A stretch of DNA of 64,000 bases from Stigmatella aurantiaca DW4/3-1 (GTDB taxonomy: Bacteria > Myxococcota > Myxococcia > Myxococcales > Myxococcaceae). A model generated the notes under the pieces. That model made no database searches, was not told the DNA's origin, and saw nothing but the letters and a program-made list of their open reading frames with translations. The stretch lies in the NCBI RefSeq assembly GCF_000165485.1, contig NC_014623.1:2809501-2873500 (forward strand). Direction: 5' to 3'. A program made the position numbers and the translations under genes. Below, in pieces: positions 6,920 through 52,702 of the stretch (its first letter is position 1; every line of letters starts with the position of its first letter).

Positions 6920-8080
6920 ATGGCTTCCATTCGTGACGACGAGCTGCCCAACGCCACGGGAATTCCTTCGGCTGCACGGCGAACCGACATCTCCCCACCT
7001 CCCGCGCTGGAGGTCACCGAGGAGTTGCTCCACGCGTTGCCCAAGACGGATCTGCACTGCCACCTCGATGGCTCCATGCGGCTGAAGACCATCCTGGAGC
7101 TGGCCGAGCAGCAGAAAGTGAAACTCCTCGCGGACACCGAGGACGGTCTGGCCCAGGCGATCCACATGGGCCAGGTGTGCAAGAGCCTCGATGAGTACCT
7201 CGTGGCCTTCGATGTCACCCTGTCCGTCTTGCAGACCGCCGAGGCGCTCTACCGCTCCGCCTACGAACTGGCGGTGGACGCGGCGGCCGAGAACGTGCGC
7301 TACCTGGAGGTGCGCTACTCGCCCGCCCTGCACCTGCAGAAGGGGCTGAAGATGACCACGGTCATCGACTCGGTGCTCGAGGGGCTGCGCGCGGCCAAGC
7401 GTGAGACGGGCATCAAGTACGGCGTCATCGTCTGCGGCATCCGCCACATCAACCCGCAGACGTCCATGCGGCTGGCGGAGCTGAGCGTCGCCTACAAGAA
7501 CCGGGGCGTCATCGGCTTCGACCTGGCGGGCGCCGAGGCGAGCTTCCCCGCGAAGGACCACAAGGACGCCTTCCAGCTCATCCTCAAGAACAACGTCAAC
7601 TGCACGGCGCACGCCGGTGAGGCGTTCGGTCCCGAGTCCATTTCGCAGGCCATCCATTACCTAGGGGCTCACCGCATCGGCCATGGCACGCGGCTTCGGG
7701 AGGACGGGGACCTGCTCAACTACGTGAACGATCACCGCATCCCGCTGGAGGTCTGCCCGACGTCCAACGTGCAGACCGGAGCGGTGACGAGCCTCGCCGC
7801 GCACCCGCTGAAGTTCTATTTCGACTATGGCCTCCGGGTGACCATCAACACCGACAACCGGCTCATCACCGATACCACCGTGACGAAGGAGCTGTGGGTC
7901 GCGCACAAGGAACTGGGGCTGTCGCTCGAGGACCTCACCACCATCCTCGTCTCTGGCTTCAAGAGCGCCTTCCTCCCGTTCCGGGAGAAGCAGGATCTGT
8001 TGCGCAGCGTGAACCAGGAGATCGCCACCACCCTCGCGGCGTTCGAGACCCGGCCGAAGATGGTGAGACAGCCCGCCTGA
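6920..8080 (+). CDS. add: adenosine deaminase
   Basis: A 386-residue zinc hydrolase that converts adenosine to inosine in purine salvage. The metal and substrate motifs of the family are all present: TDLHCHLDGSMR near the N-terminus, HAGEAFGPESI, HRIGHGTRL with the catalytic His region, and INTDNRLIT. The NTDN form of the last motif is also known in actinobacterial enzymes. ATG 6920 is preferred, with AGGAA 10 bases upstream; an in-frame GTG at 6914 is possible. An N-terminal tail of about 35 residues precedes the barrel. The next gene follows after 9 bases and is probably cotranscribed. Confidence 0.92.
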   Translation: MASIRDDELPNATGIPSAARRTDISPPPALEVTEELLHALPKTDLHCHLDGSMRLKTILELAEQQKVKLLADTEDGLAQAIHMGQVCKSLDEYLVAFDVTLSVLQTAEALYRSAYELAVDAAAENVRYLEVRYSPALHLQKGLKMTTVIDSVLEGLRAAKRETGIKYGVIVCGIRHINPQTSMRLAELSVAYKNRGVIGFDLAGAEASFPAKDHKDAFQLILKNNVNCTAHAGEAFGPESISQAIHYLGAHRIGHGTRLREDGDLLNYVNDHRIPLEVCPTSNVQTGAVTSLAAHPLKFYFDYGLRVTINTDNRLITDTTVTKELWVAHKELGLSLEDLTTILVSGFKSAFLPFREKQDLLRSVNQEIATTLAAFETRPKMVRQPA

Positions 8081-8089
8081 GAGACCCTC

Positions 8090-8869
8090 ATGGACCTCGA
8101 ACTCGCTGGGAAGGTGGTGCTCGTCACGGGAGGCTCGGAGGGGCTTGGCGCGGCCGTGTGTGCACGGCTCGTTCGTGAGGGGGCGCACGTGGCGCTCTGT
8201 GCCCGGAATGCGCAGCGGCTGGAAGCCACTGCCGCCACCTTGCGTTCCCAGGGAGGGCAGGTGTTCGCCCTGCCCACGGACGTGACAAGCCCGGCGGAGC
8301 TGGAGCGTTTCGTCGAAGCGGCCCACGCGCGCTGGGGCCGGGTGGATGCGCTGGTGAACAACGCGGGCTCCGCGGCGGCAGGTCCCTTCAGCACGCTGAG
8401 CGATGCCCAGTGGGAGGAGGATCTCCAACTCAAGCTGTTCGCCGCGGTGCGGGCGGCCCGGCTGATCGTGCCGCACCTTCGCGCGGTGGGGGGCGGCGCC
8501 ATCCTCAACGTGCTCTCCATCCGGGCGAAGGCCCCAGGCGCTCAGTCCATGCCCTCCTCGGTGACACGGGCGGCGGGAATGGCGCTCATGAAGGCCCTTT
8601 CCAAAGAGCTGGGGCCCGACCGGATCCGGGTGAATGCCTTGCTCGTGGGAATGATCGAGAGTGGCCAGTGGGCCCGCCGGGCCGAGGCCTCGGGCAAGTC
8701 CCCGGCGGAACTCTACGCCCAGATGAGCCGTGATGCGGGGGTGCCCCTGGGACGCATCGGACGGGCCGAGGAGTTCGCCGATGCCGCTGCTTTTCTCCTC
8801 TCGTCCCGGGCGTCCTACATCAGCGGGACGGCCCTCAACGTGGATGGAGGGCTGTCTCCGGTGGTGTGA
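8090..8869 (+). CDS. SDR-family oxidoreductase with altered active site
   Basis: A 259-residue short-chain dehydrogenase/reductase. The Rossmann glycine motif TGGSEGLG, the NNAG motif, the NVLS strand with the catalytic Ser, and the C-terminal SGTALNVDGG motif are all present. The position that normally reads YxxxK instead reads SSVTR, aligned by the following AAGMALMKALSKEL helix. The usual catalytic Tyr is therefore Ser and the Lys is Arg. Some SDR subfamilies share this substitution, so it may use altered chemistry or be a binding protein. It follows the adenosine deaminase by 9 bases. No substrate can be assigned. Confidence 0.82.
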   Translation: MDLELAGKVVLVTGGSEGLGAAVCARLVREGAHVALCARNAQRLEATAATLRSQGGQVFALPTDVTSPAELERFVEAAHARWGRVDALVNNAGSAAAGPFSTLSDAQWEEDLQLKLFAAVRAARLIVPHLRAVGGGAILNVLSIRAKAPGAQSMPSSVTRAAGMALMKALSKELGPDRIRVNALLVGMIESGQWARRAEASGKSPAELYAQMSRDAGVPLGRIGRAEEFADAAAFLLSSRASYISGTALNVDGGLSPVV

Positions 8870-8878
8870 GCTGGGCGG

Positions 8879-10075
8879 TCAACGCGCCTGGGGGGATCGT
8901 GGCACGAGGAAGAGCAGTCGGCCCTTCTGCTTCATCATGCCGGCCGCCAGCTCCGCCTCGGGTCCTCGGCCCCAGAAGACATCCACCCGCCCCGCCCCTC
9001 GGATGGCGCCGCCCGTGTCCTGGTTGAGGACGAACCGGGACAGCGGCTTCCACGTCACCTGTCCGTCCGCTGTGGCCACGGGCCGATCAGTTTGGATGTA
9101 GGCCAGCGCACCGCGCGGAAACAGCCGTGCATCCGTGGCGATGGAGCGGCCCGGCGTCACCGGCCGACCGAGGGAGCCAACCGATGCCCCCTCCAGGAAC
9201 CGGAAGAACACGTAGGACTCATTGAAGTCGAGCACGCGGGTGCACTGGGCGGGGTTCAGGGCAAGCCACGTGCGCAGCGCCTGCATTGACATGGCCTCAC
9301 GCGGAATGGTTCCTTCCTGGATGAGGAGCGAGCCAATGCTCCGGTAGGGCCGTCCGTTGGAGGCGGCATAGCCGACGCGCCGCTCTGTCCCGTCCGGCAG
9401 GCGCAGGATGCCGCTGCCCTGAACCTCCAGGAAGAAGAGCGCCACCGCATCCTTCGCCCAGGCCAGCTCCAGCTTCTGGCCCGCCAGCTTGCCTCCGCGG
9501 ATCTCCGCCCGGGTCCAGTAGGGAACCACTCTCCGCCCATCGAGCCGTCCGAAGAGACGCTCCGCCTTGAAGCGCTCGGCGAACGGCTCGAGGGGAATCT
9601 CCAGCAGATCGCCCGGGGGACCGTGGATGGGCGTCGTGTACTCGCCCGTCTGGCTCAGGCTGGCTTCGATGAGGGGCTCATAGTAGCCGGTGAAGAGCAC
9701 CGTGCCGTCCTCGCCTCCCGCGGCCTCCATCCACTCGAAGTCTTCGAGCACACGCCGCGTGAGCTCCGCCGGGCTCAGGCCCGTGGTGATGCGGGCGCTC
9801 AGCCGCTCCAGGGCGCTCCGCATCTCGGCGGCGGTGACGGTGCGCTGTCCGAACACGAAGCGCTGCTCCGCGGATTGGGCCTTGAGCCAGCTCAGGCTCT
9901 GGGCAATCGCTGTCCGGAGTGTCTCGGCATCGCCATCGTCGCTGAGCTCCAGCGGGTGCGAGACCGGGACGAGCGCCTCCTCGGGGCGGGTGACGGGGGG
10001 GCGGGCCGCGCGTGAGCAACCCGTGGCCAGCAACAGCAGACACGTCGCCCATGAGAGGGCGGGAAGAAGGCGCAT
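8879..10075 (-). CDS. mltA: MltA-type membrane-bound lytic murein transglycosylase
   Basis: A 398-residue lipoprotein (signal MRLLPALSWATCLLLLA, lipobox ATGC) that should be anchored in the outer membrane and cleave the glycan strands of peptidoglycan. The MltA barrel is seen in FTGYYEP, PYWTRAEI, FFLEVQGSG and AASNGRPYRSIG. The C-terminal 3D-like region DTGGAIRGAGRVDVFWG holds the catalytic Asp. Length is close to the E. coli enzyme (365 residues) plus a short N-terminal region. It lies 9 bases downstream of the tail-anchored hypothetical gene on the same strand, so the two are likely cotranscribed. Confidence 0.92.
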   Translation of the reverse strand: MRLLPALSWATCLLLLATGCSRAARPPVTRPEEALVPVSHPLELSDDGDAETLRTAIAQSLSWLKAQSAEQRFVFGQRTVTAAEMRSALERLSARITTGLSPAELTRRVLEDFEWMEAAGGEDGTVLFTGYYEPLIEASLSQTGEYTTPIHGPPGDLLEIPLEPFAERFKAERLFGRLDGRRVVPYWTRAEIRGGKLAGQKLELAWAKDAVALFFLEVQGSGILRLPDGTERRVGYAASNGRPYRSIGSLLIQEGTIPREAMSMQALRTWLALNPAQCTRVLDFNESYVFFRFLEGASVGSLGRPVTPGRSIATDARLFPRGALAYIQTDRPVATADGQVTWKPLSRFVLNQDTGGAIRGAGRVDVFWGRGPEAELAAGMMKQKGRLLFLVPRSPQAR

Positions 10076-10084
10076 GCTCAGGGT

Positions 10085-11164
10085 CTATCGCGCACCAGTC
10101 TTGGCACGTGCAAGCCCGGGAAACACCTGCTCGGCGCCCAGCCCCGCCCCCACTCCCAGCGCGAAGGCCAGCACGAGCATCAGGAAGGTTCCCAGCCTTG
10201 AGCGGGAGGGGGCCTGCCGGGGTTGGGCCTGGGCGGGGGCCGTGTCTTGCTCGTCCGGGATGAGCACCAGGACCTTGATGCCGCCGTAGAAGAGGGTGTC
10301 CACCAGCTCGGTGAAGAACCGCTCGTACTCTTCCGCGCTGATGTCCATCGCCCGGCCGTAGCGGCTCTGGTGGCGTCTGGCCACTGCGGCGTGGTTGCGG
10401 AGCTGGGACTCCATCTTCGACACATCCACCCAGCCGCAGACGATCGCGGGAGCGGATTCCATGTTCGAGACGAGAGAGATGGGCTGCCGGGCCAGGATGC
10501 CGCCCCCTGTGCTGGGGCCATCCGGCTCGTCGATGCGCAGCCGGTAAGCGGGCGCCCCATAGCTCCTCCGCGAGAAGGTGGCCCTGACGAGATCCGCGAT
10601 CACCGCGGCCTTGTTCGCGAACGCCGTGCGCAGTTCCTCTCCCGGGGGCGGTGGGCCCAAGGAGGTGGTGCTGGCCGCCGTGATGACGCCGCTTGGCGGG
10701 GAGGCCGCACCCGGTCTGTAGTCCGCTTGGGTGATGACGGGCAGCGGGCTGTGAAGGTCCAAGGGAGGCGGCTTGGCGGCCGACTGGGGAGGAATCTCCA
10801 GAGGGGGGAGGGTGTAGGGTCCGGTGGCCAGGGGATCCGCTTCCTTCTGGGCGTCCCAGGGCAGGGCAGGGGCATCCAGCGCCCGGCGGGACCCCGTCTT
10901 CCGGCGGATGGGCCGGGTGGCATCCTCATTGGGGAGGGGCGTGATGGGGCCGCGCTTCTGGGGAACCGGGGGGGTTGCATCCTCCTCGGGCTCCTCCCAG
11001 GCGGGCGGGGGGGGCGCGTTCTTGGCGATGAGCCGGGTGGAGTCGTCCGGGGCGTTCCAGGAAGACTCTTCCTGGATGGGCTGCTCGTCCTCCTCCAGGG
11101 GCCGGAGGCGCGTCTCTTCGGTGGACACCACAGGGGGCCGGGGCTCTCGGTGTTTGCTCGCCAT
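10085..11164 (-). CDS. Pro-rich tail-anchored protein with acidic-TR motifs
   Basis: A 359-residue protein of unknown function. ATG 11164 is preceded by a good site (GGGAGG, 4-9 bases upstream). The first 180 residues are Pro-, Glu- and Asp-rich and disordered-looking. They hold four acidic-Thr motifs: EETRL (Thr18), DSTRL (Thr43), EDATP (Thr64) and EDATR (Thr83). Residues of about 185-310 look folded, with conserved-looking segments such as VSNMESAPAIVCGWVDVS and a helical YERFFTELVDTLFYGGIKV. Near the C-terminus is one membrane helix (FLMLVLAFALGVGAGLGA), suggesting a tail anchor with a cytoplasmic N-terminus. The neighbours are a histidine kinase upstream and MltA downstream on the same strand. 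Confidence 0.7.
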   Translation of the reverse strand: MASKHREPRPPVVSTEETRLRPLEEDEQPIQEESSWNAPDDSTRLIAKNAPPPPAWEEPEEDATPPVPQKRGPITPLPNEDATRPIRRKTGSRRALDAPALPWDAQKEADPLATGPYTLPPLEIPPQSAAKPPPLDLHSPLPVITQADYRPGAASPPSGVITAASTTSLGPPPPGEELRTAFANKAAVIADLVRATFSRRSYGAPAYRLRIDEPDGPSTGGGILARQPISLVSNMESAPAIVCGWVDVSKMESQLRNHAAVARRHQSRYGRAMDISAEEYERFFTELVDTLFYGGIKVLVLIPDEQDTAPAQAQPRQAPSRSRLGTFLMLVLAFALGVGAGLGAEQVFPGLARAKTGAR

Positions 11165-11211
11165 TTTCCTCCCCTTCCATCACAGGTCTCAGCGCGCCGC
11201 TTCTATCCTTT

Positions 11212-13707
11212 TCATGGAGTGTCCTGAGAGTCGATAGGCAAGGACACGGAGAAGCGGGTTCCCTGTCCGGGACCGGCGCTCGAGGCTTGAATCGTCCCTC
11301 CGTGACGCTCGACGATCTCCCGGCAGATGGCCAGGCCGAGCCCCAGTCCCCCGGCGTAGTGCTGGGCTGCGTTCCGGGCGCGGTAGAACGGGGTGAACAG
11401 GCTCGGCAGGCTTTCGGCGGGCACGCCGATTCCCTGGTCCTTCACCTCGATGAGGGCCCGGTCCGCCGTGGAGCCGATGCAAACCTGAATCGGCGCATCC
11501 GGCGGAGAGTAGCGCGCCGCGTTTTCAATCAAGTTGGTCAGGAGCTGGTCGAGGCGCTGCTCGTCCCAGACGCCGAGCAGCGGACCCTCGGGCAACTCGA
11601 GCTGGATGGGAGCACTCCGCTCGCGGCTGGAGTGCTGGATGCGGTCGGCCACCTCCCGTGCCAGCGCCGTCAGGTCCATGGACGCGCGCCTCATGGCCAG
11701 GCGTCCTCCCTGGATGCGGGCCATGTCCAGCATGTCCGAGACGAGCCGCGTGAGGCGGTCCACCTGCCGCCGCAGGCGCTCGAGCGTGGAGCGCTGCCGC
11801 TCCAAGGGGAGCACCTGATTCTCGTCGGATTGCCGCAGCAGCAGCTCGACGGTCGCCTTGAGGGGCGTCAACGGGGTGCGAAGCTCATGGCTGGCCATGG
11901 ACAGGAACTGATCCCGGAGGGTGATGGCCTCGCGCAGCTCCTTCTGCGTCTGTTCGATCCGGGCCGCCATTTCGTTGAAGCCCGCCGTGAGCTGCGCGAC
12001 CTCGTCATCTCCCCGCGCGGGAACGGGCTGCCCGAGCGACAGCGTCTTGAGCGCGGCGAAGCCATCCCGGAGGGCCTCCAGGCGCTGGGCCACGTCCTGG
12101 CCGACCCACCGGGACAGCAGGAGCGCGATGGCCCCCGCCAGCAGCGCCACCGCCACGACGATGGCACTCAGCCGTGTCACGGGTGCGAAGGCCTGGCGCA
12201 GGCGCGAAACCACCACCACCGTCCAGGGGGTGTCCGGCACCTGGGCGTGGGCGATGAGGAGCCGCTGCCCGGAGGCATCGAACGTCTCGAGGATGCCTTC
12301 ATCCGTCGAGAGGGCGCCTTCTTTCACGAAGGAGAGAATGGGAGCGCGCGTGAGGACCTCGCCGTGCTCTGTTTCCCGCAGCAGGCGCCCATCCCGCTTG
12401 TCGAAGATTTCGACGTGGTAGCTCCGCGAGGTGAGGGTCGCCTGGTGTCCCAACCGCAGCAGGGAGACCCCTCCCACGAAGACACTGGGGTCTTGACCCC
12501 CCGCAGGCACCTGGGAGGAGAACACCACGGCGGGGATTCCCGCGGCATTGAGGAATGGCTCGGACAGGTACACCTGGTTCGAGGCCTTCGCTCCCTGGAA
12601 ATAATCCCGGTGCGAGAAGTTGCCCTGCACGGGACCGGTCTTGGGCGAAGACAGCACCACATCGCCTCGGCCATCCAGCATCCAGACCTCATCGAACTGT
12701 CCAGAGGACCGTTCGAGCAGCTCGAAGCGCTTGTACAGGGCGGCTTTCTCCCTGGACCTCGCCCAATCTTGCAGCGAGGGATCCTGAACCTGGAGGGACA
12801 CCAGGGCGCGGGCCATCGACGCGCTCTGCTCCAGCCAGGCGGCCTCGGCCAGGACCGCCTGTTGCGCCTTGCCGCGCAGCTCGCGCTCGATCGCCTTCTG
12901 GGCGAGCACCGAAGCCAGGGCCCCCACGGCGATGATGGGCAGGACCGAGGCGAACGCCATGCCGCGGAACAGCCGCCAGCGAACCCCTGAGGGCTGGGGT
13001 TGACGCCTCAGAAAGACGAGCAGCAAGCAGGCCAGTGACAGGACCATGTAGAGTTCCATCCCCGTCCAGGAACTCGCGGCGCCCAGGATAACCGCCAGGA
13101 TCGCGAACAAGGCGCAGAGCACGCCGATGGCGAGCCGGTCCAAGGTGGGTTGGCGGCGCAGCCGGCCCACGGCGAGCAGGCCGCCGGAGCCCAGGAAGAG
13201 CAGGGCCACGGGGAGGGTCACTTGCTTGAGCCCCGCGCTGAGGGTGGGGCTGGTCTGGGAAGGGCCGAGCAGCAGGAGCACGCCAAACGACAGGGCCACC
13301 GCGGTCAAGAACCCTGGCATCAAGGGGCGTTCCCGCCATCGGGGAAGCGACTCCATGATGAGGCAGGCCGACATCAAGGGATAGAGGATGCCCCCGGTCA
13401 GCCCGCGGAAGATGACGGACGCGGTCCACCAGTAGATCGCCAGCGGCGCCAGGAACAAGGCTCGCCCGAGCCAGCCGAACCAGGCAGGCCAGTCGCTGTA
13501 GAGCATGGCGGCGATCATCATCGCCGAGCCCACGAGGAACGCGACGCCGAGCAGCCGGATAGAGGGGTAGATGGGCTGGAAGACCCGCGCGCCGAACTCG
13601 TAGGGCACGTACACCATCGTGATACCGACGAGCAGCCCGAACGCAGCCGCGACTTGATCGACACGGACTCGAATCAAAGGGGAAAGTTCCCGGGGCTTAG
13701 CGTCCAT
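11212..13707 (-). CDS. membrane histidine kinase with sensor loop and HAMP
   Basis: An 831-residue sensor kinase. Several transmembrane helices occupy about residues 15-270 (MASE-like multi-pass region). A further helix at about 285 precedes an extracytoplasmic Cache-like sensor domain of about 230 residues (EVWMLDGRGDVVLSSPKTG, SHRDYFQGA). Another helix (LSAIVVAVALLAGAIALLL) leads to HAMP, then HisKA with SMASHELRTPL (phospho-acceptor His607) and HATPase boxes NLIENAARYS, DQGIGVP and GGLGLGL. ATG 13707 is preferred over an upstream TTG, though no clear ribosome site is seen. No response regulator is adjacent. The hypothetical and MltA genes follow on the same strand after 47 bases. Confidence 0.88.
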   Translation of the reverse strand: MDAKPRELSPLIRVRVDQVAAAFGLLVGITMVYVPYEFGARVFQPIYPSIRLLGVAFLVGSAMMIAAMLYSDWPAWFGWLGRALFLAPLAIYWWTASVIFRGLTGGILYPLMSACLIMESLPRWRERPLMPGFLTAVALSFGVLLLLGPSQTSPTLSAGLKQVTLPVALLFLGSGGLLAVGRLRRQPTLDRLAIGVLCALFAILAVILGAASSWTGMELYMVLSLACLLLVFLRRQPQPSGVRWRLFRGMAFASVLPIIAVGALASVLAQKAIERELRGKAQQAVLAEAAWLEQSASMARALVSLQVQDPSLQDWARSREKAALYKRFELLERSSGQFDEVWMLDGRGDVVLSSPKTGPVQGNFSHRDYFQGAKASNQVYLSEPFLNAAGIPAVVFSSQVPAGGQDPSVFVGGVSLLRLGHQATLTSRSYHVEIFDKRDGRLLRETEHGEVLTRAPILSFVKEGALSTDEGILETFDASGQRLLIAHAQVPDTPWTVVVVSRLRQAFAPVTRLSAIVVAVALLAGAIALLLSRWVGQDVAQRLEALRDGFAALKTLSLGQPVPARGDDEVAQLTAGFNEMAARIEQTQKELREAITLRDQFLSMASHELRTPLTPLKATVELLLRQSDENQVLPLERQRSTLERLRRQVDRLTRLVSDMLDMARIQGGRLAMRRASMDLTALAREVADRIQHSSRERSAPIQLELPEGPLLGVWDEQRLDQLLTNLIENAARYSPPDAPIQVCIGSTADRALIEVKDQGIGVPAESLPSLFTPFYRARNAAQHYAGGLGLGLAICREIVERHGGTIQASSAGPGQGTRFSVSLPIDSQDTP

Positions 13708-47217: not shown

Positions 47218-48138
47218 TCAGCGGTCCCTCGCCGGCTCCTCACGCTTCAGCCGGAGCCGGATGTCCGCGAAGTGGTACGGCGCCCAGGGGCCGGTGAACT
47301 GGAACGTCAACATCGCGTGCTTCGCGGCGAGCGATTTGACCCGCGCGTCGAAGGCGGCCTCTTGCTCCCGGGCCACGAGGAAGGCGGCGTTGAGCAGCAT
47401 CCGCTCACCCACGGGGCTCACCACCCGGGTCGCCGCGGCCACGGGCCTCAAGGTCTCCACGATGCTGTTGCCCTCATGCTGGGCCCGCTCCCGGAGCGCG
47501 CTTTCCAGTCTGCGTTCGTACTCCAATCGGGCTGGACTGTCCGGCGGCTGGCCCGCGAGGCGTGCCAGCTCCGCGTCCACCTGCTCCAGCTCCCGGGCGG
47601 CCCTGTCTTGATCCCAGAGCACTTTCAGCCCCAGCTCGATGTGCCCCTCCAGCCGACTCAGGACGTCGGTGAAGGCGTCATGGGCCGAGCGCAACAGCTC
47701 CGTGACGTCCTCAGGGCCTGGGAAGGTGAGGCCAAAGGCCATGGGCAGCAGGGTGTGGCCGTGGATCACCGCTTCCTGGACGCGGTGGTGGGCCAGCAGG
47801 TTGTCACGCGTCGGATCCGGTACCCCTCGGGGGCCTTTTGACACCACCGCTCCCAGCCCCCGGTACAGGACCGTCCACACCTCCGAGGGCGGCACCCCCA
47901 GTCCAATGAGGCCAAAGTTCAGCGCTTCTTCCGTGCGCAGCACGCCATAGACGTAGAGCCCGTGCGCAGGCGAGAGCCCTTCGGGAACGGCAGGGGTGAC
48001 GGTGGGAGCGGTTGCGGCGGCGCGAAGGGGTTCAGGCTCGGCGATGGGGAGGGGGGGCTTAGCGGACGCGCGCGGGCGGCGCTTCGCCGGGCGCTTGGTG
48101 GTTCGAGAGCTTCCTTTCCGGACGGGGGGCCGGGCCAT
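47218..48138 (-). CDS. GvpF/GvpL-family gas vesicle protein with basic N-terminal tail
   Basis: A 306-residue protein. Residues of about 58-300 match the GvpF/GvpL family: GLYVYGVLR, the AHHRVQEAVIHGHTLLPMAFG segment, a central helical region with the LEYERRLESALRERA coil, and the terminal FTGPWAPYHFADIRLRL strand typical of the family. Residues 1-45 are an unusual Lys/Arg/Pro-rich tail (RKGSSRTTKRPAKRRPR). In gas vesicle clusters GvpF/L helps nucleate or chaperone GvpA. Here it starts 3 bases after the response regulator stop and is the last gene of a four-gene operon that also begins with a GvpA/J-like gene. Confidence 0.85.
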   Translation of the reverse strand: MARPPVRKGSSRTTKRPAKRRPRASAKPPLPIAEPEPLRAAATAPTVTPAVPEGLSPAHGLYVYGVLRTEEALNFGLIGLGVPPSEVWTVLYRGLGAVVSKGPRGVPDPTRDNLLAHHRVQEAVIHGHTLLPMAFGLTFPGPEDVTELLRSAHDAFTDVLSRLEGHIELGLKVLWDQDRAARELEQVDAELARLAGQPPDSPARLEYERRLESALRERAQHEGNSIVETLRPVAAATRVVSPVGERMLLNAAFLVAREQEAAFDARVKSLAAKHAMLTFQFTGPWAPYHFADIRLRLKREEPARDR

Positions 48139-48141
48139 GGC

Positions 48142-48555
48142 TCACCGTGCCGGAAGTGCCTTGCGCACCGCCAGCATCCGCCTCACTTCTTCCACCAGTG
48201 CATCGGGCAGGCAGGGCTTGATGACGAAGGAGTCGCAGCCCGCATCCTGCGCCCCGCCGGGTTGGCCCGTCAGGGCGTGGCCGGTCAAGGCCACCACGGG
48301 GATGGTCTTCGTGCGCTCGTCGTTCTTGAGCCGGCGCGTGGCTTCCCATCCGTCGATGATGGGCAGCGACAGGTCCATCAGGATGACATCCGGCAAGAGC
48401 TCGAAGGCCTTGTCCAGCGCTTCGGCTCCGTTCTTCGCTTCGGCCACCCGGAAGCCCGAGAACTCCAAGTACTCGGCGTACATCTCGCGCGCATCTTGGT
48501 AATCGTCGACGACCAGGACGAGCGGCTTGGGTCCGTCCACTGGGGGGTTGCTCAT
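48142..48555 (-). CDS. single-domain response regulator
   Basis: A 137-residue receiver domain with VVDDYQD acidic pocket, phospho-acceptor Asp61 (LMDLSLPIIDGW), TGHA and the switch Lys in VIKPCLPD. There is no output domain, so it probably acts by protein-protein contact, like CheY or SpoIIA-type regulators. It overlaps the histidine kinase stop by 4 bases (ATGA) and lies 3 bases before GvpF/L. It is the cognate partner of the kinase by position. Confidence 0.93.
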   Translation of the reverse strand: MSNPPVDGPKPLVLVVDDYQDAREMYAEYLEFSGFRVAEAKNGAEALDKAFELLPDVILMDLSLPIIDGWEATRRLKNDERTKTIPVVALTGHALTGQPGGAQDAGCDSFVIKPCLPDALVEEVRRMLAVRKALPAR

Positions 48556-50237
48556 GTGCGCCTCGTGCGCCGGGGTAGGTGCAAGGTGAAGGTGGAGCCC
48601 TGGCCCAATGCGCTTTGAACCGTGATGCGACCTCCCAGCATGGTCGCCAGACGCCGGCAGATGGACAGGCCCAGGCCCGTGCCGCCATAGGCGCGGGTGG
48701 GGGAGCTGTCCACCTGCTGGAAGTCCTCGAAAATTTTCTCCTGATGCTCCTGCGCGATGCCAATGCCCGTGTCCTTCACGGAGATGAGCACAAGCGAGAG
48801 CGAGGGCTGGTACTCGGCGTTGACCTGGATGGAACCCTCATGGGTGAATTTGAGGGCGTTGGACAGCAGGTTGAGGACGATCTGCTTCACCTTCTGCCGG
48901 TCGCTGTGGACCTCTGGCAGCCGGGGGGGAAGGGCGGCGTCCACCACGAGCTTCGTGCGCGCGATGATGGGGTCCAGCTCCGCCATCACTTCCTGGAGAA
49001 GCTCCGGCAGCGCGAAGTCCGACAGGTTGAGCGGCATCCGTCCCGCCTCGATGCGGGTGATGTCGAGGATCTCGTTGATGACCTGGAGCAGGTGCCGCCC
49101 GTTGGAGTCGATGCGTTGGAGGTTGCGCTTCTGCGTGGGCATCATCTCCCCGGACACGCCCTGGAGCAGCATGTTGGTATAGCCGAGGATGGCGTTGAGC
49201 GGGGTGCGGAACTCGTGGGACATGTTGGCCAGGAACTGGGACTTGGCCGCGCTGGCCTGCTCGAGCTGGAGCGCCTGCCGGCGCAGCTTCTCGTTCTGCT
49301 CGGCCAGCTCCGCGGTGGCCGTGTGGACCTTGGCCTCCAACTCGCTGGAGGCCGTCTTGAGCTGCTCCAGCAGCCGGGCCTTCTCGCGCGTCTCGGTCCG
49401 GTCGTGCAGCAAGGTGACGATGGAGGTCGTCTCGCCCTGGTCCGTGAGCACCTTGCTGGCCACGGCCTCCATGGGCAAGGGGGTGCCCGTGGTGGGCTCC
49501 ATCAGGTGCAGCTCTCCGCGCCAGCGCCGCGCGCTCCCTTGGGAGAGCAGGTGGGACAGGAACGAGGAGAAGTGCGCGTCGTTGGTTCGCACGCGCCGCC
49601 GGGAGGCCTCGCCGCTGCCCGCCGGGGCGGAGAAGAGCCGCTCGGCCGGATCGTTCATCAGCACCATGCTCCCGGAGGGGTCCGTGAGGATGATGGGGTT
49701 GGCCACCGAGTCGAGGATGAGATCCAGGCGCAGCCGCTCCGAGCGGGCCTCCTGCTCCGAGGCGCGGAGCCGCCGGTAGCTCTCGCCGAGGGCCTGGGTG
49801 GCACGCCCCAGGTCCGTCACGTTGCGCAGCACGCTCACCACGCCCACCACGCCCTGGGCCTCGCGCATCGGGGTGGTGACAAGCTCGAAGAGCAGGTCCG
49901 TGCCCTGGAGCGGATCCACCAGGGACAGCTCCCGCCGGCGCACGGTGGAGGCGCCCCCCGTGGCGGCGCTGGCGAGCGCGGTGGTGAAGAGGTGCTGGTT
50001 GAGCTCCACCGCCCGGCGGTGCCCTTCGCTGGCCCCTTCGCCCGCCACCAGCAGCTCGCGCGCCCGCGCGTTGGCGATGCGCAGGTGCCCCTCGGCGTTG
50101 GTGAACAGCAGCGGGTCGGTCACCGCGTCCAGCAGGCGCAGCAGGATGAGCTGATCCGGCGGGGTGGCCGGGGAGCCAGGGCTCGACGGCTCCTCGGTCA
50201 GGGGGCTGGAGGGGAGCAGGGGCGCGATGGAGGACAC
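48552..50237 (-). CDS. cytoplasmic PAS histidine kinase
   Basis: A 561-residue soluble kinase. Two PAS-like domains lie at about residues 28-145 (DAVTDPLLFTNAEGHLRIANA) and 170-290 (DSVANPIILTDPSGSMVLMN). A coiled coil at about 295-335 leads to HisKA with ANMSHEFRTPLNAI (His341), and the HATPase has NLLSNALKFTHEG, DTGIGIAQEH and GGTGLGLSICRR. No membrane segment is visible, so the signal is intracellular. It starts 4 bases after the GvpA/J-like stop, so it is cotranscribed with it. Confidence 0.92.
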   Translation of the reverse strand: MSSIAPLLPSSPLTEEPSSPGSPATPPDQLILLRLLDAVTDPLLFTNAEGHLRIANARARELLVAGEGASEGHRRAVELNQHLFTTALASAATGGASTVRRRELSLVDPLQGTDLLFELVTTPMREAQGVVGVVSVLRNVTDLGRATQALGESYRRLRASEQEARSERLRLDLILDSVANPIILTDPSGSMVLMNDPAERLFSAPAGSGEASRRRVRTNDAHFSSFLSHLLSQGSARRWRGELHLMEPTTGTPLPMEAVASKVLTDQGETTSIVTLLHDRTETREKARLLEQLKTASSELEAKVHTATAELAEQNEKLRRQALQLEQASAAKSQFLANMSHEFRTPLNAILGYTNMLLQGVSGEMMPTQKRNLQRIDSNGRHLLQVINEILDITRIEAGRMPLNLSDFALPELLQEVMAELDPIIARTKLVVDAALPPRLPEVHSDRQKVKQIVLNLLSNALKFTHEGSIQVNAEYQPSLSLVLISVKDTGIGIAQEHQEKIFEDFQQVDSSPTRAYGGTGLGLSICRRLATMLGGRITVQSALGQGSTFTLHLPRRTRRT

Positions 50238-50241
50238 GACG

Positions 50242-50451
50242 CTACGCTCCGGTCCCCGTCATCCCCGGAGGCGGCACGGGCGTCTCCAAGTGGGTGTCCA
50301 CGGCTTCGACGGTGATGAGGAGCCGCTCTGTCCCGCGTTGCGGGCTCGTCAGCACCGCGTTCGGACGCACCTCGAACCGGACGCCCTGATCCAGGACACG
50401 GTCAAGGATGTCGACGAGGCTGGTGATTCCGGGATTTCGTGCGACAGGCAT
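50242..50451 (-). CDS. GvpA/GvpJ-family gas vesicle-like protein, 69 residues
   Basis: A 69-residue protein starting at ATG 50451 with AGGAG 6 bases upstream. The N-terminal half SLVDILDRVLDQGV matches the core helix of the gas vesicle structural family (GvpA/J/M/S), in which SLxDxxDRxLDKG is the usual pattern. The C-terminal LLITVEAVDTHLET fits the second helix (IxVASVETYL) at the same spacing. The central turn, normally with Trp and VGIELL, is replaced by RPNAVLTSPQRGTER. It is therefore a divergent member and may not form the rigid wall. First gene of the operon with the kinase, regulator and GvpF/L. Confidence 0.72.
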   Translation of the reverse strand: MPVARNPGITSLVDILDRVLDQGVRFEVRPNAVLTSPQRGTERLLITVEAVDTHLETPVPPPGMTGTGA

Positions 50452-50554
50452 CCAGGACTCCTGCGGGGGGTGTCCTCCCGCCTTCCTTTCATAGCGCGCC
50501 CAGCCGTGGGCCCCTCAGGGTTTCGGCGAAGGTCCGCAAATGGCCAACACCTGA

Positions 50555-50579
50555 GTGTCCACTCTGTTGCCTCGGACAC
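50555..50579. promoter_or_regulatory. inverted repeat in the gvp-like/oxidoreductase divergent region
   Basis: GTGTCC (50555-50560) and GGACAC (50574-50579) form a perfect 6-base inverted repeat with 13 bases between, in the 218-base region between the GvpA/J-like start and the FAD/Rieske gene start. The spacing is suitable for a dimeric regulator. Whether it controls either side is not known. Confidence 0.3.
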
Positions 50580-50669: not shown

Positions 50670-52217
50670 ATGAAGGACGAGCGAATCCACAAGTCTCTTT
50701 GGACAACGACGGCGCACGGCAGACGCTTCCCCCTCTTGCAGGGCGACCTGACGGTGGACGTGGTCATCGCCGGAGGCGGCATCACCGGCCTCACCACAGC
50801 CCTGTTGCTCAAGCGGGCCGGCAAGAAGGTGGCGGTGCTGGAGATGCACCGGTTGCTCTCTGGCCAGACCGGGCAGACCACCGCTCACCTCACGGAGTTG
50901 CTCGACACCCCCTACGCCACGCTGCGCTCGGACTTTGGCGAGCGGGGGGCGCGCATGGCCGCGGCCTCCAGCCGGGCGGCCATCGAGCAGATCGCCACGC
51001 TCGTGAAGGAACTGGGCATCGACTGTGGCTTCCAGCGCGTGCCGCTGTACCGCTATGCGGAAACCCACCTTCAGCTCCAGGAACTGGAGAAGGAGGTGGC
51101 CGCCGCGCAGGAAGCGGGGCTGATGGTCCGCTTCACCCAGGAGACGCCGCTGCCCTTTCCCGTGAAGGGCGCGCTGCGGTTGGAGGACCAGGCGCAGTTC
51201 CACCCGCGCGAGTACCTGCTGGCTCTCGCCGAGCAAATTGAAGGGGATGGGTGCTTCCTCTTCGAGGAGACGCGGGTGGTGGAGGTGCAGGACGGCACGC
51301 CCTGCCGCGTCATCACCGACCGGGGCACCGTGACGGCCGGAGAGGTGGTGGAGGCGACGAACAGCCCCCTCAACCGCGTCTTCATGCAGACGAAGATCTA
51401 CCCGTACCGCACCTACGCCGTGGCCGGTCCGCTGGAAGGTCCCCTGGAGCCGGGCCTCTATTATGACAGCCAGGACCCCTACCACTACATCCGGACGCAG
51501 CGCGTCCAGGGCGTGAACTACCTCATCGTGGGCGGCGAGGACCACAAGGTGGGCACGGAGGAGAACACGCAGCAGCGCTTCGATGCCCTGGAGGCTTACG
51601 CACTGCGTCGCTTCCCAGTCTCGACCCTCACCCACCGTTGGTCTGGGCAGGTCATCGAACCCGCGGATGGTCTGGCGTACATCGGCCGCAACAGCGCTTC
51701 GAAGCACACCTGGGTGGCCACGGGTCTATCGGGAACGGGCCTGACGTGGGGAACGCTGGCCGGGATGATCCTCTCGGACCTTCTCCTCGGACGGCAGAAC
51801 CCATACGCCGCGCTGTATGACGCCACGCGCGTGAAGGTGCGGGCGGGGGCCAAGGACTTCATCCAGGAGAACGCGGAGGTGGCGTTCCGTTTTGTCGCGG
51901 ATCGCCTCTCCCGGCCGGATGGGTGCACGCTGTCCGAGGTGGCTCCGGGCGAGGGGAAGATCCTCGAGGTGGCCGGGCAGAAGATCGCCGTCTACCGGGA
52001 AGAGGGCGGCGCGTGCCATGCCGTGTCCCCGGTGTGCACGCACCTGGGCTGCCACGTGCATTGGAACAACGCCGAGCGCTCCTGGGACTGCCCATGCCAT
52101 GGCGCCCGCTTCAGCCCCACCGGCCAGGTGCTCAACGGGCCGGCCGTGAAGGACCTCGCATCCAAGAAGCTTCCACCCGAGGCGAATGACGCACCATCAG
52201 ACGGAGAGACACCATGA
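50670..52217 (+). CDS. FAD-dependent oxidoreductase with C-terminal Rieske domain
   Basis: A 515-residue redox enzyme. The N-terminal DAO-type flavin domain has VVIAGGGITGLTTALLLKRAGKKVAVLE. A Rieske [2Fe-2S] domain at about residues 425-500 holds CTHLGC (Cys456, His458; Cys461) and DCPCHG (Cys474, His477; Cys476), the ligands and disulfide pair of a true Rieske centre. The fused architecture is seen in other bacteria; the electron partner is unknown. It may be located in the cytoplasm, since no signal is seen. The hemerythrin gene follows with ATGA overlap. Confidence 0.92.
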   Translation: MKDERIHKSLWTTTAHGRRFPLLQGDLTVDVVIAGGGITGLTTALLLKRAGKKVAVLEMHRLLSGQTGQTTAHLTELLDTPYATLRSDFGERGARMAAASSRAAIEQIATLVKELGIDCGFQRVPLYRYAETHLQLQELEKEVAAAQEAGLMVRFTQETPLPFPVKGALRLEDQAQFHPREYLLALAEQIEGDGCFLFEETRVVEVQDGTPCRVITDRGTVTAGEVVEATNSPLNRVFMQTKIYPYRTYAVAGPLEGPLEPGLYYDSQDPYHYIRTQRVQGVNYLIVGGEDHKVGTEENTQQRFDALEAYALRRFPVSTLTHRWSGQVIEPADGLAYIGRNSASKHTWVATGLSGTGLTWGTLAGMILSDLLLGRQNPYAALYDATRVKVRAGAKDFIQENAEVAFRFVADRLSRPDGCTLSEVAPGEGKILEVAGQKIAVYREEGGACHAVSPVCTHLGCHVHWNNAERSWDCPCHGARFSPTGQVLNGPAVKDLASKKLPPEANDAPSDGETP

Positions 52218-52702
52218 ACGCCATTGACCTGCTCGAGGACCAGCACCAAGAGGTGAAGAAGCTTTTCAAGAAGTACGAGAGCCTGGGGGACGGCGCGGAT
52301 GCGGAGCGCCGGGAGCTCTTCGAGAAGATCGCCGACCGGCTGGCGGCCCATACCTCCATCGAGGAGCTGTACTTCTATCCCTCGGTGAAGGCGGCCCGGA
52401 CGGAGGAGCAGCTGTACGAGGCGGTCGAGGAGCACCTGGCCGCCAAGCGCATCATCGCGGACCTGCTCCAGATGAAGCCGGACAGCGAGTACTTCGACGC
52501 GAAGATGAAGGTGCTCCAGGAGAGCATCGACCACCACGTGGAAGAAGAAGAGGAGGAACTCTTTCCGAAGGTGCGCAAGCTCCTGACGGAGGAGCAACTG
52601 CTGGTGCTCGGCATCCAGATGAAAGAGGAGTTCGACGAAATCATGGAAGCCGAGCCGCGCTACGAAGTGCCGATGCAGACGGACGTCGCGGCCCCTATCT
52701 GA
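52214..52702 (+). CDS. hemerythrin HHE-domain protein
   Basis: A 162-residue four-helix protein with the HHE cation-binding pattern: DQHQEVKKLFKKYE, HTSIEELYFYP, EEHLAAKRII and HHVEEEEEELFPKV. His and Glu/Asp in these helices form the di-iron site; relatives bind O2 or NO, or scavenge peroxide. It overlaps the oxidoreductase stop by 4 bases and may be its redox partner or an iron store. An acidic run (EEEEEE) near residue 115 is unusual but tolerated in this family. Confidence 0.9.
   Translation: MNAIDLLEDQHQEVKKLFKKYESLGDGADAERRELFEKIADRLAAHTSIEELYFYPSVKAARTEEQLYEAVEEHLAAKRIIADLLQMKPDSEYFDAKMKVLQESIDHHVEEEEEELFPKVRKLLTEEQLLVLGIQMKEEFDEIMEAEPRYEVPMQTDVAAPI

Follow-up and report, generated by a model that had tools for sequence, protein, structure and literature searches.

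The window, a stretch of 64,000 nucleotides from the genome of Stigmatella aurantiaca DW4/3-1, carries four minus-strand genes in the order GvpA-like protein, PAS histidine kinase, lone receiver and GvpF/L protein, with a spacing of 4 bases, an overlap of 4 bases and a spacing of 3 bases between consecutive genes, counted from the GvpA-like end (Table 1). These tightly joined genes form an operon, as had been proposed from the DNA, with open reading frames, spacings and conserved order in agreement. This order is shared by 51 genomes of the host's class, and the kinase and receiver genes overlap by exactly 4 bases in 50 of them, which places the arrangement beyond chance; the remaining one, L048, is a draft assembly whose kinase frame is broken. 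Scans for promoters and terminators returned 0 and 2 sites, compared with 0.1 and 1.5 in shuffled sequences.

Table 1. Features of the four-gene operon, in positions of the window
Feature	Positions	Strand	Basis
GvpA-like protein, 69 aa, GvpA relic; residues 1-27 kept, hairpin region diverged	50242..50451	-	ORF, Pfam and comparison
Histidine kinase, 561 aa, PAS-PAS-HisKA-HATPase_c; without the N-terminal region present in 43/51 operon kinases	48552..50237	-	
Kinase PAS pair, residues 36-142 and 170-280; missing in 12/12 kinase-receiver-only loci	49398..50132	-	
Stand-alone receiver, 137 aa; 4-base overlap with the kinase gene	48142..48555	-	
GvpF/L, 306 aa; domain at residues 60-291	47218..48138	-	
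Conserved dyad CAACA-N15-TGTTGG in the divergent intergenic region; may serve either neighbour	50544..50569	-	

The assignment of two of these proteins to gvp families is clear for GvpF/L, a PF06386 member in Pfam (216.1 bits against a cut-off of 23.6, model positions 1-244 of 245) whose sequence matches PDB entries 6l5d and 4qsg. It is weaker for the 69-residue protein, which in the window falls below the PF00741 (Gas_vesicle) cut-off (20.2 bits against 25, with the first 14 of 39 model positions matched); the copy of a relative (P0007) exceeds it, at 29.8 bits. The receiver protein scores 83.5 bits with the Pfam model Response_reg, and the kinase comprises PAS, PAS, HisKA and HATPase_c domains in Pfam, giving a HisKA and HATPase_c kinase that adjoins a receiver domain, the composition of a two-component system. 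In many genomes about 500 bases separate the GvpA-like gene from the kinase domains; they code for an N-terminal extension of the kinase, and a separate gene at this place was rejected; a GAF-like identity of the extension, proposed by eye, found no Pfam match. Because the kinase and receiver genes overlap by 4 bases in 50/51 operons and are retained together in 12 further loci, phosphotransfer from the kinase to the receiver is probable. In CheY/DivK-like pairs, a kinase and a stand-alone receiver likewise work by phosphotransfer without a DNA-binding output domain; what sets the present pair apart is that it is embedded between two gas-vesicle-family genes and was apparently once part of a vesicle cluster.

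The GvpA-like protein is 64% identical to a cluster GvpA over residues 1-27 and 16% over residues 28-45. Its frame is uninterrupted in every one of the 49 readable operons, and all 49 copies have D14, D17, R18 and G23 together with a derived R25, the equivalent of which is valine in all six cluster GvpA proteins; V13 is also derived and invariant. Across six clades, pN/pS is 0.13-0.30 in codons 1-27 and 0.43-1.04 in the remainder, values which show the first 27 codons to be under purifying selection and the rest to be much less constrained. Mean hydropathy of the hairpin region (residues 28-60) is -0.27 (-0.14 in the window), compared with 0.79-0.82 in cluster GvpA, and the window protein lacks the wall-forming hydrophobic hairpin of the PF00741 family. 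According to excerpts of PMC7688916 and PMC9372576, haloarchaeal GvpF binds a GvpA fragment of residues 1-22. With residues matched to haloarchaeal GvpA numbering in the present analysis, the published GvpF-contact positions R15 and G20 have equivalents in 49/49 copies, D24 corresponds to D or E in 46 of 49, K19 to R in 39 and Q in 10, the window copy among the latter, and R28 and E40, which also matter for haloarchaeal GvpF binding, are kept in just 14/49 and 12/49. As judged from these comparisons, the protein retains the N-terminal arm and helix, the parts to which haloarchaeal GvpF binds, and has lost the hydrophobic hairpin; it would build no wall and probably serves as a dedicated partner of GvpF. 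Its predicted structure, with a helix at residues 12-21 only and a mean pLDDT of 54, was not used as support.

Six sampled relatives, drawn from four families, have a gvpA-kinase-receiver-gvpF unit inside a gas-vesicle cluster. The cluster of G085, which belongs to the same family, occupies the same chromosomal address, its upstream neighbours being 74%, 47% and 72% identical to those of the window. Another vesicle cluster (L099) contains a kinase, an NtrC-type regulator and a lone receiver. At the operon's address in 12 further genomes, only the kinase and receiver are found and both Gvp genes are gone. In G007 and G010, neither a kinase nor Gvp genes were detected near the receiver ortholog, and in G011 it is accompanied only by a kinase remnant. 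Four of the 12 kinase-receiver-only genomes (G043, G045, G046 and G048) have a GvpF/L elsewhere. Weak GvpF matches at six of the 12 loci (E 6e-4 to 0.009) were not counted as GvpF, because each covers no more than a short piece of the GvpF queries, inside their first 60 residues and ahead of the GvpF domain.

In the kinase tree, rooted on f2 by our own choice, the 51 operon kinases form one branch and all six cluster kinases fall outside it. A single clade for the 12 kinase-receiver-only loci was not rejected (p-AU 0.41). The GvpF/L tree, from which L068 (broken) and L104 (long branch, its GvpF/L thus unplaced) were left out, separates 58 module GvpF rows from 34 paralogs by a branch with support of 95; rejection of a single module group by the first such tree (p-AU 0.0004) was set aside, one module GvpF (G102, L064) having been labelled a paralog in it. 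By gene content and order, the operon is shown to correspond to the gvpA-kinase-receiver-gvpF unit that belongs to a gas-vesicle cluster in other families. It is not an odd union of unrelated parts. The simplest history would be derivation from such a cluster by reduction in place and subsequent vertical inheritance, since the operon sits without the remainder of the cluster where a relative of the same family has the cluster.

The PAS pair is present in 51/51 operon kinases, in 6/6 cluster kinases and in L104, and is found in none of the kinases at the 12 kinase-receiver-only loci. That it is missing there together with the GvpA-like protein and GvpF suggests that the Gvp pair acts at the input of the kinase and not as the target of the receiver. 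The PAS pair would be the route by which the two Gvp proteins jointly act on the kinase, which in turn would phosphorylate the lone receiver; the output of the receiver would lie elsewhere in the cell. Taken as a whole, an operon reduced in place, in which the GvpA-like protein partners GvpF and the two act at the kinase input via the PAS pair, is a reading that we favour tentatively, with a little less than even confidence. A bolder extension seems rather doubtful to us: that the gvp chaperone-client pair has itself become the kinase input, with the PAS pair reading GvpF, loaded or not with the GvpA-like protein, and that the ancestral kinase sensed vesicle assembly. In the ancestral clusters, this link could have let the kinase read the loading of GvpF with unassembled GvpA as a check on the assembly state, which the reduced operon might keep without the organelle; no kinase checkpoint on vesicle assembly state was met in the literature searched.

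Several observations weigh against the input model. Loss of the PAS pair, the GvpA-like protein and GvpF amounts to one or two events and could be coincidence or a single deletion. The window GvpA-like protein is under the Pfam cut-off, and has Q at the K19 equivalent, and the R28 and E40 equivalents are absent from most of the 49 copies. GvpF is only moderately constrained (pN/pS 0.36-0.61, a rough range that includes some rows with upstream starts and the broken gene of G106), although its domain is stop-free in 50/51 operons; internal stops in four GvpF rows were traced to tblastn starts upstream of the gene, with the domain itself stop-free there. In a Bacillus-derived system, as excerpted from PMC11445434, GvpF-GvpA2 contact was detected only on removal of other Gvp proteins.

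The original prediction placed the Gvp pair at the output, with the phosphorylated receiver contacting GvpF or the GvpA-like protein and switching their assembly. The receiver and gvpF genes are adjacent and tightly spaced. The receiver carries no output domain, and in five of six clades it shows the strongest constraint among the four genes (in the exception, Hyal3, codons 1-27 of the GvpA-like gene have a lower value). This claim is weakened by the 12 genomes in which kinase and receiver persist at the operon's address without the Gvp genes, as well as by the isolated receiver orthologs of G007, G010 and G011, and we consider it unlikely. Equally to be weighed is that the two Gvp proteins are slowly decaying leftovers, that only the kinase and receiver matter, and that the GvpA-like gene is kept as a leader or for translation coupling. 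Their joint absence in 12 genomes, the nearly unconstrained C-terminal part of the GvpA-like protein in places (pN/pS up to 1.04) and the broken GvpF of G106 would fit decay, and the lower synonymous change in codons 1-27 than in the rest, seen in five of six clades, could reflect a constraint on the nucleic acid. Against it stand the open frames of both genes, the protein-level constraint on codons 1-27 and the derived yet invariant R25 and V13, which make decay improbable. An opposite direction of change, in which an older kinase-receiver pair had vesicle genes added around it, would agree with the pair standing alone at the address in 12 genomes, and the root of the tree was not inferred from the data; the clusters are nevertheless spread over four families and make up the deepest branches under the f2 root, and the GvpA-like protein has derived loss features, so we regard this order of events as very unlikely.

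Profile searches of the window's own single-contig genome gave no PF00741 match, one PF06386 match, which is the operon's GvpF/L gene, no match to GvpK (PF05121) and no GvpN above the cut-off; a gas-vesicle cluster, taken as GvpA and GvpK with further accessory genes in the genome, was thus not found in S. aurantiaca DW4/3-1, in line with what had been claimed. GvpN was counted only above the cut-off of TIGR02640 (3/147 genomes), a model that at E 0.001 is unspecific, matching 144/147 genomes and also 12/14 control genomes. An ArsA-type ATPase, present in the window's genome as a copy of 36% identity, was rejected as a cluster relic because genomes that lack GvpF/L altogether (e.g. G042 and G044) retain it too. 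A minimal gas-vesicle-like particle of the GvpA-like protein and GvpF, controlled by the two-component pair, would draw on the GvpA ancestry and the retained first helix, and is made highly improbable by the diverged hairpin segment with its low hydropathy, by R25 in every copy and by this genomic background. A role of the operon for a vesicle cluster located elsewhere in its own genome can practically be dismissed: GvpK is present elsewhere in 11/51 operon genomes and undetected in the other 40, the window's included, and as it also occurs in three of the 12 kinase-receiver-only genomes (G043, G045 and G048), a separate cluster does not track retention of the two Gvp genes.

The four-gene order therefore persists without GvpK in 40 of 51 genomes, and the idea of a soluble signalling unit made of gas-vesicle-family proteins is borne out. 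Overall, the original prediction holds in part: the operon, the families (weakly so for GvpA) and the signalling unit stand, the proposed target of the receiver has lost ground, and the premise that kinase and receiver genes are not interleaved in normal gvp clusters fails for this class, as the clusters of six relatives hold these very two. Serratia-type clusters, which according to the excerpt of PMC4982088 include the regulators gvrA-gvrC, also speak against that premise.

The same excerpt describes gvrA-gvrC of Serratia ATCC 39006 as acting on gvpA1 transcription; there, as in the operon, vesicle and signalling genes share one locus, but the Serratia cluster yields vesicles and its GvrA is a transcription regulator of the NtrC type, whereas the operon has a receiver without an output domain and two vesicle-family genes left. 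Streptomyces offers, in that source, a further case of vesicle genes in soil bacteria without known floating; its cluster is without several genes, and the operon is down to the GvpA-like gene, gvpF and two signalling genes. As in the GvpF-GvpA chaperone-client pair of Halobacterium salinarum (PMC7688916 and PMC9372576, in excerpt), a GvpF/L accompanies a GvpA N-terminal segment, with the differences that the operon's protein is without the wall-forming hairpin and that binding within its pair is a prediction. No description of such a system was found in the titles and abstract starts of the open-access literature searched.

One chromosomal address thus presents a series of states, namely a vesicle cluster, a four-gene operon and a kinase-receiver pair, in which the organelle genes are lost and the signalling core is retained. 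Two questions follow, one about the role of gvp genes in soil bacteria without known floating, the other about whether contact between GvpF and GvpA can be a signal. In soil-dwelling myxobacteria, signalling seems to have taken over part of the equipment for buoyancy.

The four minus-strand genes are present in the window as the original prediction described them, and form the operon listed in the table below. According to Pfam, the kinase has the domain order PAS-PAS-HisKA-HATPase_c, the receiver is stand-alone, and the last gene encodes a clear GvpF/L, for which PDB sequence matches gave relatives with solved structures. The 69-aa protein, a GvpA relic referred to here as GvpA*, falls under the Pfam GvpA cut-off, and a relative's copy of the same gene lies above it. 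In profile searches of the single-contig genome (10,260,756 bases), no second GvpF/L was found, PF00741 and GvpK gave zero matches, and GvpN gave none over the cut-off.

Coordinates of the operon and of other loci discussed in the text
Sequence	Position	Strand	Feature
Window	47218-50451	-	Operon: gvpA*, kinase, receiver, gvpF/L
Window	48552-50237	-	Operon kinase
Window	50670-52702	+	Divergent DAO/Rieske oxidoreductase and hemerythrin genes; adjoin the operon in 34/51 and 30/51 loci
L120 (own genome, G000:C1, about 9.61 Mb)	7507-7959		Paralog of the window's receiver (64% identical)
L120	3626-7438		1270-aa protein adjoining the paralog; protein-kinase, STAND NTPase and FGE-sulfatase domains
L099 (G028)	7372-12618		Vesicle cluster; also encodes an NtrC-type regulator, a kinase, a stand-alone receiver and a Cdc48-type AAA protein
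L068 (G106)	about 9412-9870 (module orientation)		Broken GvpF; GvpA*, PAS kinase and receiver retained; assembly error or real loss

Profile searches detected GvpF/L in 73 of 147 genomes sampled from the class (75 of 195 sampled across the phylum), GvpK in 27 of the 147 and PF00741 in 31. Neighbourhoods were examined for 66 of the 73 GvpF/L genomes, leaving out G001, G002, G004, G006, G027, G029 and the G046 match, and in 59 of these the GvpF/L gene adjoined orthologs of the kinase and receiver, with L031 and L032 excluded as duplicates because their contigs equal those of L085 and L086 in length. The 59 loci comprise 51 four-gene operons, six units inside a gas-vesicle gene cluster (L055, L096, L097, L098, L105 and L106), L104, which has the kinase, the receiver and a distant GvpF/L with no GvpA found, and L054, which is truncated where its contig ends. 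In 49 of the four-gene operons GvpA* could be read; the remaining two stop at a contig edge. Among the other seven genomes, G102 has GvpF alone at a contig end, and the GvpF/L genes of G028, G043, G045, G048, G138 and G139 have no adjoining kinase-receiver pair. GvpK was detected elsewhere in 11 of the 51 operon genomes and was undetected in 40. Some operon genomes, including those of L090, L091, L092 and L094, carry a separate vesicle cluster at another site; the module kinase and receiver do not adjoin it in any of these four, and L094 has a distant kinase and receiver about 7 kb off.

The order in L096 is a PF00741 gene, gvpA, kinase (714 aa), receiver, gvpF/L, an ArsA-type ATPase, gvpF/L, a PF00741 gene, gvpF/L and gvpK. 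The ATPase is missing between the first two gvpF/L genes in L106 and in G085, where gvpG occupies the position, and in G085 gvpK and the third gvpF/L are near the end of a different contig. Upstream of the G085 unit, the neighbouring genes correspond to those of the window, with identities of 74% for the alcohol dehydrogenase, 47% for the gene after it and 72% for another farther out, so that, judging by gene neighbourhood, the vesicle cluster and the operon occupy a common chromosomal address. Ten families of flanking genes are recurrent, each occurring at between 26 and 48 of the 51 operons, and a member of one family is likewise found upstream of two f2 clusters (L096 and L097).

At the same address, reduction has apparently gone further. 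With a threshold of E 1e-30, the receiver search found matches in 81 of the 147 genomes, and of 18 further stretches chosen from it, 12 (G042-G048, G073-G076 and G121) contain the kinase and receiver with neither GvpA* nor GvpF. The window's divergent oxidoreductase is matched next to the pair in all 12 (apparently so for G121), and downstream neighbours of the window's locus are matched in eight. Weak tail matches to GvpF in six of the 12 fall outside the GvpF domain and were not counted. The other stretches hold a receiver ortholog without kinase or Gvp genes in the vicinity (G007 and G010; L117 and L123), a receiver ortholog with a C-terminal kinase remnant (G011; L118), a receiver at the start of a contig (G092) or a receiver paralog (own genome and G118). 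Most operon-bearing genomes have a second receiver match.

Trees were built by quick searches and include long branches. In the kinase tree of 59 rows, the 51 operon kinases share one branch (support 100), with the six cluster kinases outside. A larger tree of kinase core and receiver (71 rows, adding the 12 two-gene genomes), rooted on f2 by choice, had the cluster rows as its deepest branches. All the two-gene loci but one, 11 in total, fell among the operons in this tree, and the exception, G042, formed a poorly resolved branch outside. Neither a single clade of the 51 operons (p-AU 0.40) nor one of the 12 two-gene loci (p-AU 0.41) was rejected. The operon's origin is largely explained; the reverse course, in which vesicle genes were gained around an older kinase-receiver pair, is less simple but may hold.

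The PAS pair is present in all 51 operons, all six clusters and L104, and in none of the 12 two-gene loci (L054 is cut in that region). The N-terminal kinase region is retained in all 12 two-gene loci and in 43 operon kinases and is absent from the eight operons of the window's branch, which points to opposite sensor losses at one locus.

Over residues 1-27, the 49 GvpA* copies are 64% identical to L096 GvpA, falling to 16% over 28-45 and 25% over 46-62; the other five cluster GvpA proteins give 96, 97 and 99%. Among 20 positions tabulated, G8, S11, V13, D14, D17, R18, G23 and R25 are invariant in GvpA*, of which V13 and R25 are derived, since cluster GvpA has I13 and V25. As described in passages of PMC7688916 and PMC9372576, haloarchaeal GvpF binds GvpA fragment 1-22, and R15, K19, G20, D24, R28 and E40 matter. 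In our own alignment, R15 and G20 are conserved in 49/49 GvpA*, the K19 position carries R in 39 copies and Q in the other 10 (including the window), D24 corresponds to D or E in 46, and R28 and E40 are conserved in 14 and 12. Pooled, uncorrected pair counts from six clades of GC-rich genomes gave pN/pS of 0.13-0.30 for GvpA* codons 1-27 against 0.43-1.04 for the rest, 0.13-0.36 for the kinase, 0.06-0.29 for the receiver and, roughly, 0.36-0.61 for GvpF. In all but one of the six clades, codons 1-27 showed less synonymous change than the remainder of the gene, and the nucleic acid itself may therefore be under some constraint there.

Upstream, a relaxed pattern picked out a dyad near CAACA-N15-TGTTGG at 48 of the 49 operons scanned, and the one exception offers only 76 bases to search; among single-base shuffles the match rate is 0.13%, the loci themselves being related. 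The strict pattern occurs in 33 of 49, starting 113-139 bases ahead of GvpA*, and the dyad in 5 of 11 two-gene loci scanned. The own genome has one exact site for the full pattern and one with two mismatches. Lying between divergent genes, the dyad may serve either neighbour.

Retention follows two blocks: the kinase and receiver are kept without Gvp genes, and GvpA*, GvpF and the PAS pair are missing together. The originally proposed mechanism, a receiver acting on GvpF/L or the GvpA-like protein by contact, is possible and less favoured, because the pair persists without Gvp genes. The same pattern leads us to place GvpA* and GvpF, tentatively and at somewhat less than even chance, at the kinase's input, where they would act; our caution reflects a basis of one or two events, possibly a single deletion or coincidence.
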